A stretch of 28,922 bases of DNA from a virus, in the IMG/VR virus record IMGVR_UViG_3300023435_000076, positions 1 to 28,922 of that record. The stretch is one strand, 5' to 3'. Positions 2,908 to 26,649 of this stretch are shown piece after piece. The notes under the pieces were generated by a model. It made no database searches. It saw only the letters and a list, made by a program, of their open reading frames with translations, and had not been told where the DNA came from. Every line of letters starts with the position of its first letter. Position 1 is the first letter of the stretch. The position numbers were made by a program, and so were the translations under genes.

Positions 2908-3504
2908 TTAGTCCCTTTGGTTTTTAAATAGCATTATAGGCAATAGGAAAAATGCTCCTAGTGCTGATCCATAGTGTGCTAAGTATCCTATTCCTGAGTT
3001 CATAAAAAGACTTTTTCCTGCTGATAGTCCTTGAGACATGAAATAGAATAATGCTGGTAGTACTATTATTAGTCTTCCATTGATTAGGTGGTGGAATATC
3101 CATATCATCATTAGTCCACAAATACTTCCTGAAGCTCCTAATGCTGTAGCTTGTGGTAAGAACATTGCAAATAATACACTTCCCATTATTCCTGTAAAGC
3201 AATAAGCCAATAGTATAAATCTTTCTCCATAGGCTTTCTCTATTACAGGTGTAATGAATGATAAGAATAACATATTACCCATTAAATGTCTTAATGATCC
3301 ATGTAAGAAACAAGCTGTTAAGTATGAATACCATATATTACTACGGAATACATACATACTTGTTATATCTGGATTTATACATTGCATTATATATACTATT
3401 ATATTAACTACTATCAGTATTTGAGTCATTATTAGTGCTTTACTAGATATTTTACTAGTTAATCTTCTTAGTAATTCCATTAACATGTAGTGTAATTTTA
3501 TCAT
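2908..3504 (-). CDS. Rhomboid-family intramembrane serine protease
   Basis: A 198-residue polytopic membrane protein with about six hydrophobic segments. All core rhomboid motifs are visible: H-x4-H-x3-N (H68, H73, N77 in HGSLRHLMGN), the catalytic serine loop GASG (S125), and the last-helix histidine in YLAHYGSALGA (H177) followed by small residues for helix packing. The S/H catalytic dyad is therefore intact. Rhomboids cleave substrates within or next to transmembrane helices. The gene lies inside the structural operon; the preceding stop abuts the start (TAAATG) and no clear Shine-Dalgarno is seen, so translation is probably coupled. Alternative starts at Met7 and Met9 would keep all motifs. 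Its phage function is unknown; the neighbouring small membrane protein is a possible substrate or partner. Confidence 0.85.
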   Translation of the reverse strand: MIKLHYMLMELLRRLTSKISSKALIMTQILIVVNIIVYIMQCINPDITSMYVFRSNIWYSYLTACFLHGSLRHLMGNMLFLSFITPVIEKAYGERFILLAYCFTGIMGSVLFAMFLPQATALGASGSICGLMMIWIFHHLINGRLIIVLPALFYFMSQGLSAGKSLFMNSGIGYLAHYGSALGAFFLLPIMLFKNQRD

Positions 3505-14328: not shown

Positions 14329-14841
14329 TTATTTATTAAGTTTGTCTTTAACTAATTGCTGTAATATTATCAACCTTTTCCTAATAGCCTCATAAGATAA
14401 TCCATGCTTATCACCAATGGCGCGATAAGATAAATCATTCATATTCCTATCAATATATATCTCATAATCTACACTATCGCCTAATATGATTTTAATTTTA
14501 TCAAGTAACAATTGAACTGTAATATTACTATCTGAATTGTTATGGTGCAAATTGTCTACAAAATCGGCACACCTACTATCACACAATTTATGCTTATAGC
14601 TTGGAATACGTACTAGAGAGCCTGTATTCTCAATCGCTCTGATGATAGATTGTTTTATCCATTGGTACGCATAGGTGCTAAACTTACACTTATTGTTCTC
14701 AATATACTTGCTATTAGCTGTTAGTAGCCCTATGTAGCCCTCTTGACACAAATCCTCGAAGTCTAATCCATTATTAATATACCTTTTAGCTACATACTTG
14801 ACCAATCCCGTATGCTTTTCTATTAGTTTGGCATTATCCAT
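14329..14841 (-). CDS. Sigma-70 family RNA polymerase sigma factor
   Basis: A 170-residue protein with a recognisable sigma region 2: HTGLVKYVAKRY, DFEDLCQEGYIGLLTA (core-binding 2.1-2.2 helix), and KFSTYAYQWIKQSIIRAIEN (2.3-2.4 helix, promoter melting and -10 recognition), ending with the typical VRIP. The C-terminus has a region 4-like helix-turn-helix, LSYRAIGDKHGLSYEAIRKR (about 137-156). Regions 1.1 and 3 are absent or reduced, so it is a small alternative sigma factor. The host RNA polymerase would be redirected to phage promoters. It sits at the boundary before the late operon, fitting a late-gene switch. AAGGGG ribosome binding site. Confidence 0.85.
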   Translation of the reverse strand: MDNAKLIEKHTGLVKYVAKRYINNGLDFEDLCQEGYIGLLTANSKYIENNKCKFSTYAYQWIKQSIIRAIENTGSLVRIPSYKHKLCDSRCADFVDNLHHNNSDSNITVQLLLDKIKIILGDSVDYEIYIDRNMNDLSYRAIGDKHGLSYEAIRKRLIILQQLVKDKLNK

Positions 14842-17880: not shown

Positions 17881-18015
17881 ATGGAACGAATAGAAAGCTG
17901 TGTAATATGTGGTGAACCGTTATCAGTAGATAGAGTTATGAATGGTATTTCTATATGTGATGAATGTGAGGAGTTATCAACTACCGAAGGAGAATGTTAT
18001 GATAAAGAGGATTAG
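17881..18015 (+). CDS. Small zinc-finger protein (44 aa)
   Basis: Short ORF with two Cys pairs, CVIC and CDEC (residues 7-10 and 26-29), in the spacing of a treble-clef or zinc-ribbon fold similar to DksA/TraR-type minimal zinc fingers. AAGGAA ribosome binding site before the ATG. First gene of the rightward operon; its end overlaps the start of the lipoprotein gene by 17 bases. Possibly a transcriptional modulator that acts early; inferred from size, fold and position. Confidence 0.6.
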   Translation: MERIESCVICGEPLSVDRVMNGISICDECEELSTTEGECYDKED

Positions 18016-18553
18016 TATATTACTTTTATTGCTATTTATAGCTTCATGTGGTAGAACCTCCGGCAAGTTTGATCAAAATGATACAACACCATTAACGTGT
18101 CAAGAAATGTATAGTCAAGAGTTTTGTGATAGTATTAGAGGAGAGGATGGTGAGTCTATTACTGGTGCCGAAGGATTATCAGGAGAGAATGGTATTAATG
18201 GAATAGATGGTGAGGATGCAGAGCCTTGCACAGTAGTTGGTGTATTAGATGAGGACACAGGAGACACAGGAGCCTTAATAACGTGCCCAACTAGCCAAGC
18301 TATAGTATGGGATGGGGTAGAGGGAGAAGATGGATCAGATGCCATCCTGGAGGTTATAGACCCCTGCGGTAAAGAAACTACTTATGATGAAGTATTGTTT
18401 AGACTATCTGATGGTAATATATATGCTGTATATGCACACATTAAAGGTAATAAATATGAAATAATGTTGACACAGCTTATTAATTCATGGTATATAACAA
18501 CTGATGGCACAGATTGTAATTTTAACCTATTCAATGGTGAGGTAACCTGGTGA
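17999..18553 (+). CDS. Lipoprotein with collagen-like repeats
   Basis: A 184-residue protein with a classical lipoprotein signal: KR followed by a hydrophobic core and IASC lipobox, C17 the predicted lipidated residue. After it comes a Gly-x-x region (about residues 48-72, GEDGESITGAEGLSGENG and on) typical of short collagen-like triple helices, then Cys-containing segments and a beta-rich C-terminal domain ending in FNGEVTW. AAGGAG selects this ATG; the open frame extends further upstream without a plausible start. It would be placed on the host envelope, so superinfection exclusion (by analogy with T5 Llp-type lipoproteins) is a reasonable guess, not shown. Confidence 0.75.
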   Translation: MIKRISILLLLLFIASCGRTSGKFDQNDTTPLTCQEMYSQEFCDSIRGEDGESITGAEGLSGENGINGIDGEDAEPCTVVGVLDEDTGDTGALITCPTSQAIVWDGVEGEDGSDAILEVIDPCGKETTYDEVLFRLSDGNIYAVYAHIKGNKYEIMLTQLINSWYITTDGTDCNFNLFNGEVTW

Positions 18554-19866
18554 GAAATAAGATTATAAAAGTATGGAAAGATGAGGATAACAGAAGATGG
18601 TACTTACCTGACTGTGATGACTTTCCTTATATATCCTCTTCAACATTGGTAGGCATAGCCAAGACTTATAGGTATAGAGGTTTTAAGAAAGATGATAAAT
18701 CAGCTAAGAGATTACAGAAAGCTGGTCAAATAGGTACTAATATACATGCTGTATTTGAACAATATAATAGGAAACAACTAGGAGAAGACTTCTATGTAGA
18801 TCCTAAGATATGTACTAGATATAATCAAATACTACTCAATTATATTAAGAAAGTAGAATTAATATCTCTTAATGAAGGAGAGGTTAAAGTAGTAGAGGTA
18901 GAACGTGGTGTTATTAACTCCTTATACAAGTATGCTGGTAGATTTGATGTATTAGTTACCGTAGGAGGAGAATATGAGATATGGGATTATAAAACAAGTA
19001 GACAAGTAAAAGAAGAGGACGGCTGGCAGTTAGCTAGTTATATGCTTGCATTGCTCCTAGAGGGGATTAAAGTAAAAAGAGTACGTATCATACACATAGA
19101 TAAAATATCCTATAAGATAACAGATTTAAAATATCGACATCATGGATATATGATACGTAAGTTTCTAGGACTAATGGACACATTTAAAGGAATGTACTTT
19201 AATGACCTATTAAGAGGCCGTATTAATGATATAGATGAACTAGGTAAGAAATATAAATGGCCTTTAGACGAATTACTTAAGTGTTATGTAATAGACTATA
19301 ATAAACAAGAGGAGAACATTATGGAACTACAAGAAGTAACAGGACTAGGAGACAAGAAAACATTTGTCAAAGATCCTAACAGAGTAGATTTTAGTGATGG
19401 AGAAGTAATTGGCACCCTATTAGGTGCTGTGCCTAGCCGATGGGTACACAAAGCCGGCAAGAAAGTATTTGCATGTACCGGTAAGGATAAGTGTGAGAGA
19501 TGTAAGTTAGGTATGAAGAAAGCAGTACAGTTTAAAGCCAATTTCTTAACACTAGATGCTACAGATAAACCAGTTATTAAATACATAGTATCTGAATCAA
19601 TTAGACTGTTCTTTGCTTTAAATGGAGCTATGAAAGAAATAGCCGCTAATGATGGTGATACTAGAACAGCAGTAATAAGGATAGAAAGATCAGGTACAGG
19701 ATATGATACACAGTACAAAGTAGAAAGTATTGCACCTAAGTGTAAAGCATTACAGAACATAGCTGAAACTATTAAAGATATGGAACCACATGAATTAACA
19801 TTTGATCCACTTGAAGATGATGGAGATCAAGGTGATACCCCTGATAGAACAGATATTGTAGAGTAA
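18550..19866 (+). CDS. RecB-type nuclease fused to gp32-like single-strand DNA-binding protein
   Basis: A 438-residue protein starting at GTG (18550) and overlapping the lipoprotein stop by four bases. Residues 1-250: PD-(D/E)XK nuclease of the RecB/Cas4 type with H66 (GTNIHAVFE), D133 (GRFD), D146 and K148 (WDYKTS), and a downstream Q160/Y164 motif. Residues 258-438: SSB-like domain with a likely zinc site H300, C309, C315, C318, resembling the H-C-C-C set of T4 gp32, an OB-type strand region (QFKANFLTL, AVIRIERSGTGYDTQYKVES) and an acidic tail. The nuclease would resect DNA ends while the SSB covers the strand. An internal start (next entry) implies that the SSB is also made alone. Confidence 0.8.
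   Translation: MRNKIIKVWKDEDNRRWYLPDCDDFPYISSSTLVGIAKTYRYRGFKKDDKSAKRLQKAGQIGTNIHAVFEQYNRKQLGEDFYVDPKICTRYNQILLNYIKKVELISLNEGEVKVVEVERGVINSLYKYAGRFDVLVTVGGEYEIWDYKTSRQVKEEDGWQLASYMLALLLEGIKVKRVRIIHIDKISYKITDLKYRHHGYMIRKFLGLMDTFKGMYFNDLLRGRINDIDELGKKYKWPLDELLKCYVIDYNKQEENIMELQEVTGLGDKKTFVKDPNRVDFSDGEVIGTLLGAVPSRWVHKAGKKVFACTGKDKCERCKLGMKKAVQFKANFLTLDATDKPVIKYIVSESIRLFFALNGAMKEIAANDGDTRTAVIRIERSGTGYDTQYKVESIAPKCKALQNIAETIKDMEPHELTFDPLEDDGDQGDTPDRTDIVE
19321..19866 (+). CDS. Internal in-frame start: free SSB domain (181 aa)
   Basis: Met258 of the fusion lies exactly at the start of the SSB domain (MELQEVTGLGDKK, which resembles the N-terminus of stand-alone phage SSB proteins). It is preceded by GAGGAG and a six-base spacer, an ideal ribosome binding site in a place where a random one is unlikely. 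This would give a separate SSB in excess of the fusion, as SSBs are needed in stoichiometric amount. The same reading frame is retained, so the ORF need not be broken. Confidence 0.6.
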   Translation: MELQEVTGLGDKKTFVKDPNRVDFSDGEVIGTLLGAVPSRWVHKAGKKVFACTGKDKCERCKLGMKKAVQFKANFLTLDATDKPVIKYIVSESIRLFFALNGAMKEIAANDGDTRTAVIRIERSGTGYDTQYKVESIAPKCKALQNIAETIKDMEPHELTFDPLEDDGDQGDTPDRTDIVE

Positions 19867-19884
19867 TAACTAGAGGACAATACT

Positions 19885-20580
19885 ATGTTTAAGAAGACAC
19901 AACATAAACCGTATTTAATTATTCCAGATACACATGCACCTTATCATCATAAGGACACCATCAAGTTCCTTAAGGCAGTATATAAGAGGTTTAATTGTCA
20001 AGATAAGGTGATACATATAGGAGATATATTTGACTTTCATGCCATTAGTAAGTATACAGTAGAACCAGATGCACCTACGGCAAAGGATGAGTACCAAAAG
20101 GCATTAAAGTTCAGTAAGGAGCTATGTAAAGCATTTCCTAAAGGAGTATTAATAATAGGTAACCATGATACCAGAGCTACATCTACATTAAAAGCAATGG
20201 GAATACCTATGGAGTTTATGAAGTCATCTAAGGAACTATTCGGATTAACTAAAGGATGGAAAGTAGAACCACTATGCCATGTAATTAAAGAACTAGATGT
20301 ATTATGTGAACATGGTAACAATAGTACCGGCCCTAATGGAGCATTAAACACAGCTATATTTAAACGTACTAGCTTTGTTCAGGGCCATTGCCATAGTGAA
20401 GCAGGATGTAAGTACAGTGCTAACCACGATAGCTTAATATTTGGTATGAATGTAGGCTGTTTAGTGGATAATACATCTCTAGCTATGAGATATGGCAAAT
20501 ACTTAAAGAAAAAAGGTGTATTAGGATGTGGTCTAGTATACTCAAATAGTCATGCAGAGTTTATACCAATGGAGATATGA
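19885..20580 (+). CDS. Calcineurin-like metallophosphoesterase
   Basis: A 231-residue protein with the full metal-binding motif set: PDTHAPY (D15, H17), IGDIFD (D47), GNHD (N93, H94), CEHG (H143) and GHCH (residues 167-170). It could be a DNA-processing nuclease of the SbcD/Mre11 superfamily or a phosphatase acting on nucleotides or nucleic acid ends; family fold alone does not decide. Its place directly after the nuclease-SSB gene favours DNA end processing or repair. Confidence 0.85.
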   Translation: MFKKTQHKPYLIIPDTHAPYHHKDTIKFLKAVYKRFNCQDKVIHIGDIFDFHAISKYTVEPDAPTAKDEYQKALKFSKELCKAFPKGVLIIGNHDTRATSTLKAMGIPMEFMKSSKELFGLTKGWKVEPLCHVIKELDVLCEHGNNSTGPNGALNTAIFKRTSFVQGHCHSEAGCKYSANHDSLIFGMNVGCLVDNTSLAMRYGKYLKKKGVLGCGLVYSNSHAEFIPMEI

Positions 20581-23272: not shown

Positions 23273-25060
23273 TTGAGTAAGATACCAAAGGTATTAGATG
23301 TAGAGACTACCGGACTTAACTGGACTAAATGCGGTATTATAGGCTGGGGATCTTACAGCAAACAAGATAAAGATATCAGCTTTACTAAAGATATTGAATC
23401 AGAAGAGAAGTATGAGTATATCTACCATAATGGCTCATTTGATGTTAAAGTAGCACATAAGAATGGAATAGAGTTACCATTTGATCATGATACTATACTA
23501 ATGGCTAGTTTATTACAGTATAGGAATAGTGTTAAAGAGTATTACTATAATAGTTATGATGAAGAGACTAAACTTAAAGAGAGTCTATCCTTAGATGCGT
23601 TAGCTAAGAAAGACCTAGATATTCAAAATACCTGGAAAATAGACTGGAATAAAGATACTCCTACTTATGATGAGATTAAAGAACATTGTCTAATGGATTG
23701 TAGAGTAACTTACCACCTGTTTGAAATATATAAGGAAAGACTTATTAATAATGGACTGTGGGAGTACTACGTTAAACTAATGATGCCCTTTGCTAGGATG
23801 TTAGTAGATGTAGAGTGTGCAGGTATTAGATTAGATTTAGCGAAGCTAACCAAACTTAAAGCAGATTATGGAGAACGATTAAAAGTATGGGAAGTTGTAT
23901 TCCGTAAAACTCATAAAGAAGTACTGGATATAGTAAGTAGACATTTGATCCGAGATAAAATAGCTAAAGTAAAACCTGGTAAGAAACCTGAAACTAAACA
24001 AAATAGAATAGATAAGATAGTTAAGGATGGCATTGAATTTAACCCAAGATCTAATGTACATATGAATAAGTTATTAGAACTTAAAGGATTAGAGATAAAG
24101 GATAAGAATGGTAAAAGAACTAGCTCCTCTAAGTTATTATATAGGTATAGACATGATCCAGTAATAGGGTCTATATTAGAATACAAGAAGATTAAAAAGA
24201 TCCATAGAGACTTCTTATGTAAATGGGACGATTTAAGGATAGATGATGTATTATATACTAACTTTAGATTATGGGCTACTAGAACAGGTAGACTAAGTAG
24301 TGCAGAGCCTAACTTACAGCAAGTACCTAAAGATAAAGAGATTAGAGAGTTGTTTATACCTAGAGAAGGTAAGGTGTTTACTGTAGTTGATGCTAAACAA
24401 ATGGAAGCAAGGCTAGCGGCATATTTTAGTAAAGAGCCTAATCTCATTAAAGCATTTAAGGATGGTACAGATGTATATGGACAAATAGCAATAGATCTTA
24501 TGGGATTAGATTGTTTACCCAATGATGTAAAACTTAAATATCCTAAGGAGAGACAAGTAGGTAAACAGTTATTCTTAGCTAGTTTATATGGACAGGGATC
24601 TAAGAGTCTACATTTTATATTAAGTAGAGAACATGAGATAGATATTACATTAAGTGAGTGTAGGTCTTATAAGAGATTATTTAATAAGACATACCATAAA
24701 CTTATCTCCTTCGGTGAAAAACTTAAAGAAGAGGTAATGGATAAAGGTTATATTACTAATTGGTTTGGACGTAAAGTATTTATACCGAAGGATAAGGCGT
24801 ATAGAGCTATTAATTATTATATTCAAGGGTCTAGTAGTGAATTACTATCATTCGTTCAACTGAACATAGTTAAACATCTCCCAGAGGGTGCTAGGATACT
24901 TCTATTAGTACATGACGAAGTAGTATATGAACATAAACCAGAAGATACTGATAAGATAGTTGACATCGTTAAGAAATATATGATAGAACTAGTTAACAGC
25001 AAGTATGACATGTTTATGGATATGGACATCTCAACTGGCAAAGATTGGAGTGTAAAATGA
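23273..25060 (+). CDS. DNA polymerase, family A (Pol I type), with 3'-5' exonuclease
   Basis: A 595-residue protein starting at TTG (23273) behind AGGAGG. Exonuclease domain: DVETTGL (D9, E11), YHNGSFDVKVA (N53, D57), LMDCRVTYHLF (D142). Polymerase domain: TGRLSSAEPNLQQVP (338-352), motif A VVDAKQMEARLAA (D373), motif B R427-x3-K431 to YG440 (RQVGKQLFLASLYG), motif C LLVHDEVVYE (H547, D548, E549). The 5'-3' exonuclease domain of bacterial Pol I is absent, as in phage replicases. All catalytic acids are present. Stop overlaps the next gene as ATGA. Confidence 0.95.
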   Translation: MSKIPKVLDVETTGLNWTKCGIIGWGSYSKQDKDISFTKDIESEEKYEYIYHNGSFDVKVAHKNGIELPFDHDTILMASLLQYRNSVKEYYYNSYDEETKLKESLSLDALAKKDLDIQNTWKIDWNKDTPTYDEIKEHCLMDCRVTYHLFEIYKERLINNGLWEYYVKLMMPFARMLVDVECAGIRLDLAKLTKLKADYGERLKVWEVVFRKTHKEVLDIVSRHLIRDKIAKVKPGKKPETKQNRIDKIVKDGIEFNPRSNVHMNKLLELKGLEIKDKNGKRTSSSKLLYRYRHDPVIGSILEYKKIKKIHRDFLCKWDDLRIDDVLYTNFRLWATRTGRLSSAEPNLQQVPKDKEIRELFIPREGKVFTVVDAKQMEARLAAYFSKEPNLIKAFKDGTDVYGQIAIDLMGLDCLPNDVKLKYPKERQVGKQLFLASLYGQGSKSLHFILSREHEIDITLSECRSYKRLFNKTYHKLISFGEKLKEEVMDKGYITNWFGRKVFIPKDKAYRAINYYIQGSSSELLSFVQLNIVKHLPEGARILLLVHDEVVYEHKPEDTDKIVDIVKKYMIELVNSKYDMFMDMDISTGKDWSVK

Positions 25061-25659: not shown

Positions 25660-26649
25660 ATGATGACTGAACCTAAAAAGAAAGAGTTTAAGGATATTAA
25701 TAAGGCTTATGGAGAGGATACTATTAAGTACCTTACAGATGATTATGTTACTCCTGATGAGGTAATTCCTACTGGTGTTCTTTCTCTTGATCTTGCCGTA
25801 GGAAATGGAGGGTTAGCTACTGGTACTATAATGGAAGTATATGGCCCTGAATCAGCAGGTAAGACTACTATAGCCATGTTCATTATGAGAGAAGCACAAA
25901 GGTTAGGACATAAAGTAGCATTTGTGGATATGGAACATGCATTTGATACAGGACTAGCTAAGAACTATGGACTAGACCTTTCTCAAGTGGCTTTCTCCCA
26001 ACCTGAATGTGGAGAACAGGCTTTAGGAATAGTAGAGATGTTAGTAGAAGAAGGGAATCATAAAGTTATAGTGGTAGATAGTGTAGATGCATTAGTACCT
26101 AGATCTGTTCTAGAGGGAGACTTTGGTGACAGTAATATGGGTAGGCAGGCTAAGATGATGAGTCAAGCATTAAGGAAACTTACTCCTGCGGTATCTAAAC
26201 AAGGAGTATTACTAATATTCATTAATCAAATCAGAATGAAAATAGGCATAGTATATGGCAATCCAGAAACTACTAGTGGAGGTAATGCTCTTAAATTCTA
26301 CGCTAAGTATAGATTAGAAGTACGTAGGAGAGAAGTACTTAAAGACGGTACATTAGTAATAGGTGCTAAAACTAGAGTAAAGGTAGCTAAGAACAAGAAA
26401 GCACCACCTTTTAGAGAATGTATATTTACATTAATATATGGTAAGGGTACCGATACAGATCAAGAACTAGCTGATGTATCCTTAGAGCTAGGTATAGTAG
26501 ATCGTAAAGGGGCCTGGATGTTCATAGATGGAGAACAGATAGGACAAGGCTCTAAGAGCATAGTAGAGAAGATTAAGTCAGACCCAGAGTTTAAAACCAT
26601 GCTTACAGATCTAGTAGCAAATAGTACTAAAGCTGAAACGAAGGAGTAA
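25660..26649 (+). CDS. recA: RecA recombinase
   Basis: A 329-residue protein similar along its whole length to bacterial RecA. Walker A GPESAGKTT (62-70), the MEHAFD catalytic glutamate segment (E92), Walker B VIVVDSVDALVP (136-147), the FINQIRMKIG stretch (187-196), the L2 DNA-binding loop NPETTSGGNALKFYA (201-215), and C-terminal GAWMFIDGEQIGQG. The usual RecA core is intact; the N-terminal helix is short and the acidic C-terminal tail is reduced. RecA promotes homologous strand exchange. Together with nuclease-SSB and the RuvC-like gene it makes a full recombination set. Confidence 0.95.
   Translation: MMTEPKKKEFKDINKAYGEDTIKYLTDDYVTPDEVIPTGVLSLDLAVGNGGLATGTIMEVYGPESAGKTTIAMFIMREAQRLGHKVAFVDMEHAFDTGLAKNYGLDLSQVAFSQPECGEQALGIVEMLVEEGNHKVIVVDSVDALVPRSVLEGDFGDSNMGRQAKMMSQALRKLTPAVSKQGVLLIFINQIRMKIGIVYGNPETTSGGNALKFYAKYRLEVRRREVLKDGTLVIGAKTRVKVAKNKKAPPFRECIFTLIYGKGTDTDQELADVSLELGIVDRKGAWMFIDGEQIGQGSKSIVEKIKSDPEFKTMLTDLVANSTKAETKE

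Follow-up and report, generated by a model that had tools for sequence, protein, structure and literature searches.

Results

A nuclease-SSB fusion gene heads the replication block of an uncultured phage

The window, by which we mean the whole stretch of DNA analysed here, is the 28,922-base virus record IMGVR_UViG_3300023435_000076, a contig that is a fragment. Its minus strand holds a structural block with the genes for the major head protein, portal and terminase, and its plus strand a replication and recombination block that starts at about 18 kb. The latter opens with the ORF under study and continues with a calcineurin-like metallophosphoesterase as the next gene of the operon (19885..20580; phrog_221, E 2.7e-51), nucleotide enzymes, a family A DNA polymerase (23273..25060) and a UvsX/RecA-type recombinase (25660..26649), both of the last two identified by PHROG and Pfam matches, and a RuvC-like resolvase gene that is truncated by the contig end.

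The ORF itself (18550..19866, plus strand) runs as a single open frame of 438 codons from a GTG start to a TAA stop, and is preceded by a GAGG Shine-Dalgarno sequence (18539..18542) with a 7-base spacer and a duplex energy of -7.5 kcal/mol. An earlier note, made from the sequence alone, had read it as a nuclease joined to a gp32-like single-stranded DNA-binding protein (SSB), and our analysis bears this out in that both domains were identified within one uninterrupted frame. Near-identical copies of the intact fusion are present in contigs from two other samples (L001 and L002), and three diverged phages (L008, L010 and L012; 65-66% identical) likewise encode it in a single ORF, 435-439 aa long; an assembly error can therefore be dismissed as its origin. 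The gene neighbourhoods around the fusion are similar in these three phages. Together with the window they are referred to below as the four lineages, with the qualification that L008, L010 and L012 do not count as independent of one another. All fusion-bearing phages belong to a small, uncultured group, and the fusion was not found in searches of cellular genomes. The two domains are joined by a variable linker of six to seven residues (residues 252-257 in the window; 19303..19320), in which the four-lineage alignment shows a one-codon in-frame indel; the frame is open through the join in all four lineages.

Directly upstream of the fusion lies a putative lipoprotein gene (17942-18553, plus strand) encoding a signal peptide, a lipobox-like ASC/QGC and collagen-like GXX repeats, the stop codon of which overlaps the GTG start of the fusion in the window; its counterpart in L010 (2202-2690, plus strand) matches Pfam Collagen (E 8e-9). 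The structural block includes a rhomboid-family intramembrane protease (2908-3504, minus strand; Pfam Rhomboid, E 6.9e-19). A small sigma-70 region 2 factor (14329-14841, minus strand; E 1.3e-18), for which similar ORFs occur in L008, L010 and L012, possibly serves late transcription.

The N-terminal half is a RecB-like nuclease related to a cyanophage exonuclease

Residues 1-251 (18550..19302) comprise a RecB-like PD-(D/E)XK nuclease domain with a family-specific C-terminal extension. When residues 1-257 were searched, they matched the PHROG_298 exonuclease family (E 1.5e-20, covering residues 11-209) and Pfam PDDEXK_1 (PF12705; E 3.6e-11, above cut-off), and a further ~45 conserved residues follow the end of the PHROG_298 match before the join. 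The residues D133, D146 and K148, listed for the nuclease in the earlier note, lie in the catalytic motif region GRFD(133)...WD(146)YK(148)T (18946..18993) and are invariant in all four lineages. The N-terminal half would be expected to have nuclease activity.

All four cyanophages that we examined (P-RSM1, P-SSM7, S-P4 and WH25-B) encode a homologous nuclease upstream of gp32 on the same strand. In three of them the order exonuclease-gp33-gp59-x-gp32 is continuous, and in P-SSM7 the ends of the deposited record fall within the nuclease/gp32 cluster. The cyanophage exonuclease is a PD-(D/E)XK nuclease of the same family (PHROG_298, E 7e-94 for a 225-aa stand-alone protein) and shares strand and cluster with gp32, but it is encoded by a separate gene about 1.3 kb from gp32 and has no SSB domain, whereas in the window the two are fused. 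To the question raised in the earlier note, whether related phages encode the two parts as adjacent genes, the answer is that the genes lie close together in one cluster but are not direct neighbours. That two clustered genes have become fused suggests that nuclease and SSB act together. We also considered whether the metallophosphoesterase might be a neighbour in common with the 'cAMP phosphodiesterase' beside gp32 in cyanophages, and dropped this comparison since the latter lacks such a domain. The PHROG_298-type nuclease of the gp33-gp59-gp32 cluster in S-P4 (L080, 3432-4112) bears a DexA note; this label looks wrong, because Pfam assigns the homologue in P-RSM1 to the PD-(D/E)XK proteins.

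The C-terminal half belongs to the gp32-like SSB superfamily

The C-terminal half (19321..19866), which would correspond to a free product of 181 aa, was assigned by PHROG matches, profile bridging and structure comparison. The direct match of the window's own sequence to the PHROG_1607 SSB family is weak (E 1.7e-3), and all four fusion homologues match this family, the best with an E value of 1.2e-4. Stand-alone relatives were recruited by scanning viral contigs for the motif C-x-G-K-D-x-C-x-x-C. A profile built from the four SSB halves matched small stand-alone zinc SSBs on two viral contigs, L029 (E 7.7e-10) and L024 (E 5e-6), which themselves belong to the PHROG_14578 SSB family (E 5e-21 and 2e-23, respectively); the L024 protein is also related to the annotated SSBs of phages Dp-1, MS1 and G. 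A separate Cas4-like PD-(D/E)XK nuclease gene is located a few genes downstream of the SSB gene on L024, and the same functions therefore also occur unfused.

An AlphaFold2 model of the SSB half, computed from eight sequences (four fusions and four stand-alone relatives), has a core with a pLDDT of ~80 and an OB-like strand order, followed by a tail that is predicted to be disordered and in which pLDDT falls below 50 from residue 153, counted within the SSB half. Its top PDB matches, at E values of ~2e-3 (just over 1e-3) and with low TM-scores, are mostly OB-fold ssDNA binders (RPA, a telomerase OB subunit, PrgE and PRD1 P12), and comparison with viral structures yielded matches down to E 1e-6, named phage SSBs among them. 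The structure prediction that the earlier note had proposed as a check thus favours an OB-type SSB. A model of the full-length fusion from four sequences reached a pLDDT of 37 and was set aside. PDB sequence searches with either half or with the SSB profiles returned nothing meaningful.

The ligand set that had been likened to T4 gp32 is present as a putative zinc site, H300-X8-C309-X5-C315-X2-C318 (19447..19503). C309, C315 and C318 are shared without exception by all eight proteins, H300 is invariant in the four fusions, and H300 probably matches the histidine of the EHxE motif in the stand-alone relatives when these are aligned by eye. The expected acidic tail was also recovered; its acidity is strong in the window and weaker in the relatives, and it ends in a tip, DRTDIVE (19843..19863), of which D-R-T-x-I-V is conserved in the four lineages. 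An OB-like core, an H-C-C-C ligand set and a disordered tail with a conserved tip are shared with T4 gp32-type phage SSBs (relatives in PHROG_1607, 1192, 14578 and 28938, including those of Streptococcus phage Dp-1 and Bacillus phage G). Unlike these, the SSB of the window sits behind a nuclease, and its ligand spacing is shorter, X8-X5-X2 compared with X12-X9-X2 in T4 gp32. Its sequence is too distant from T4-like gp32 for a direct significant match, and hhalign against a small alignment of cyanophage gp32 likewise gave no significant match. Taken together, the evidence supports a gp32-like OB-type SSB with a putative zinc site, which we place in the gp32-like superfamily rather than file as a gp32 orthologue because the link runs via PHROG_1607/1192 and stand-alone relatives.

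On the opposite strand, a 154-aa open frame (19296-19760, minus strand) extends across the SSB half, and the antisense frames of the relatives are open too (159-221 aa); this is probably a by-product of codon composition.

A conserved, probable internal start lies at the domain boundary

It had been pointed out that Met258 falls exactly at the domain boundary and is preceded by GAGGAG. We found this Shine-Dalgarno sequence at 19309..19314, separated by a six-base spacer (19315-19320) from the ATG at 19321..19323, and both elements are kept in the three further fusions. Met258 is invariant in all four lineages while its neighbouring residues vary. The Shine-Dalgarno sequence reads GAGGAG in the window and AAAGGAG in L008, L010 and L012; its phase relative to the codons is shifted between lineages, and the overlying peptide is Q-E-E-N in the window as opposed to K-G-D/E. 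Ranked by duplex energy among the internal in-frame ATGs, the Met258 site shares first place in L010 and is alone at the top in the other three lineages; in all four, it comes second after the gene's own start. Within the window, 32 of the 37 gene starts do not exceed this site in strength.

Of all codon positions in frame, 3-7% have an upstream site that is equally good, and when the peptides were recoded at random with synonymous codons, a comparable Shine-Dalgarno sequence appeared in 20-42% of trials; one sequence taken by itself would therefore prove little. Synonymous conservation at the join (~0.64-0.70, compared with 0.56 overall) is raised but not among the highest windows, and we regard both the recoding and the synonymous-conservation tests as suggestive at most. 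The case for an internal start is carried by conservation across the lineages, on the basis of which we consider it quite likely that ribosomes initiate at ATG 19321. A scan for promoters that could give the SSB a transcript of its own returned 13 sites, with 13.2 expected, and was uninformative.

Discussion

With a single open frame, two identified domains, a conserved fusion and a conserved internal Shine-Dalgarno sequence and ATG at hand, the reading that we favour as probable is that one gene gives rise to both a full-length nuclease-SSB and a free 181-aa SSB made from the internal start. Translation from GTG 18550 would yield a PD-(D/E)XK nuclease with a gp32-like SSB on its C-terminus, in effect a resection enzyme pre-loaded with SSB. 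Strands bared by the nuclease could then be coated in cis by the attached SSB and passed on to the phage UvsX/RecA. Separate initiation at ATG 19321, guided by the Shine-Dalgarno sequence in the linker, would produce the SSB alone, in excess over the fusion and as the bulk supply for replication and recombination. SSB is required in large amounts, as established for gp32, for which a one-to-one fusion would hardly be enough, and a search of five contigs with the fusion (fragments of up to 41.5 kb) turned up no second SSB. Free SSB made from an additional start would resolve this shortfall.

Alternatively, the fusion might be the only product, its SSB half serving as a built-in module with which the nuclease holds ssDNA and its internal Shine-Dalgarno sequence arising as a by-product of the linker peptide, with bulk SSB supplied by the host or by a gene beyond the contigs. 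The frequency of comparable sites among synonymous recodings is compatible with this, as are the incomplete contigs, beyond which a separate SSB gene could lie. However, the linker peptide varies while Shine-Dalgarno sequence and methionine are kept, the internal site is as strong as true gene starts, and the fusion-bearing contigs yielded no other SSB, which together make this explanation unlikely. We think it improbable that two once-adjacent genes merely lost a stop codon, such that selection acts on the free SSB and tolerates the long form as read-through: the conserved internal start does resemble a normal gene start and cyanophages keep nuclease and gp32 as separate genes of one cluster, yet in all four diverged lineages no stop codon interrupts the join, and even the one-codon indel there preserves the frame. 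A sequencing or assembly artefact, or a C-terminal half that is not an SSB, has next to no probability in our view, given that the weak direct PHROG match of the window is outweighed by near-identical contigs from two other samples, three diverged fusions, the profile bridge and the fold comparison.

The favoured design of one gene with two products has precedents. Gene 4 of phage T7 produces 63- and 56-kDa forms of the primase-helicase, the latter from a second start at codon 64 (PMC9198812). As there, a single phage replication gene would give two in-frame products by internal initiation, and the window has the corresponding feature, a conserved in-frame internal start with a Shine-Dalgarno sequence; the short form of T7 drops a zinc domain, whereas that of the window would drop the whole enzyme and leave free SSB. 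In Cas8/Cas11, the C-terminal part is made separately from an internal in-frame start with a possible Shine-Dalgarno sequence (PMC11899642), a similar plan for unrelated proteins in an unrelated pathway.

T4 gp32 represses its own translation. By analogy, one may speculate, though we hold it to be rather doubtful, that free SSB acts as a repressor at the internal ribosome-binding site from which it would be made, so that the ratio of tethered to free SSB tracks the exposed ssDNA, and that the tethered SSB hands the cut strand to UvsX.

Nuclease and SSB each belong to known families; literature searches of open-licence papers returned no report of a nuclease-SSB fusion, and the combination with an internal start is unreported as far as we could find. 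If the proposed arrangement is true, two steps that normally fall to separate proteins which need to find each other, end resection and the coating of ssDNA, would be covalently coupled, and the stoichiometry of tethered versus free SSB would be fixed by two start codons within one gene. The fusion would then offer a compact natural system for asking whether resection needs local handover to SSB, and would lend weight to the view that gp32 of marine T4-like phages has a working partner in the little-studied exonuclease whose gene lies near its own.
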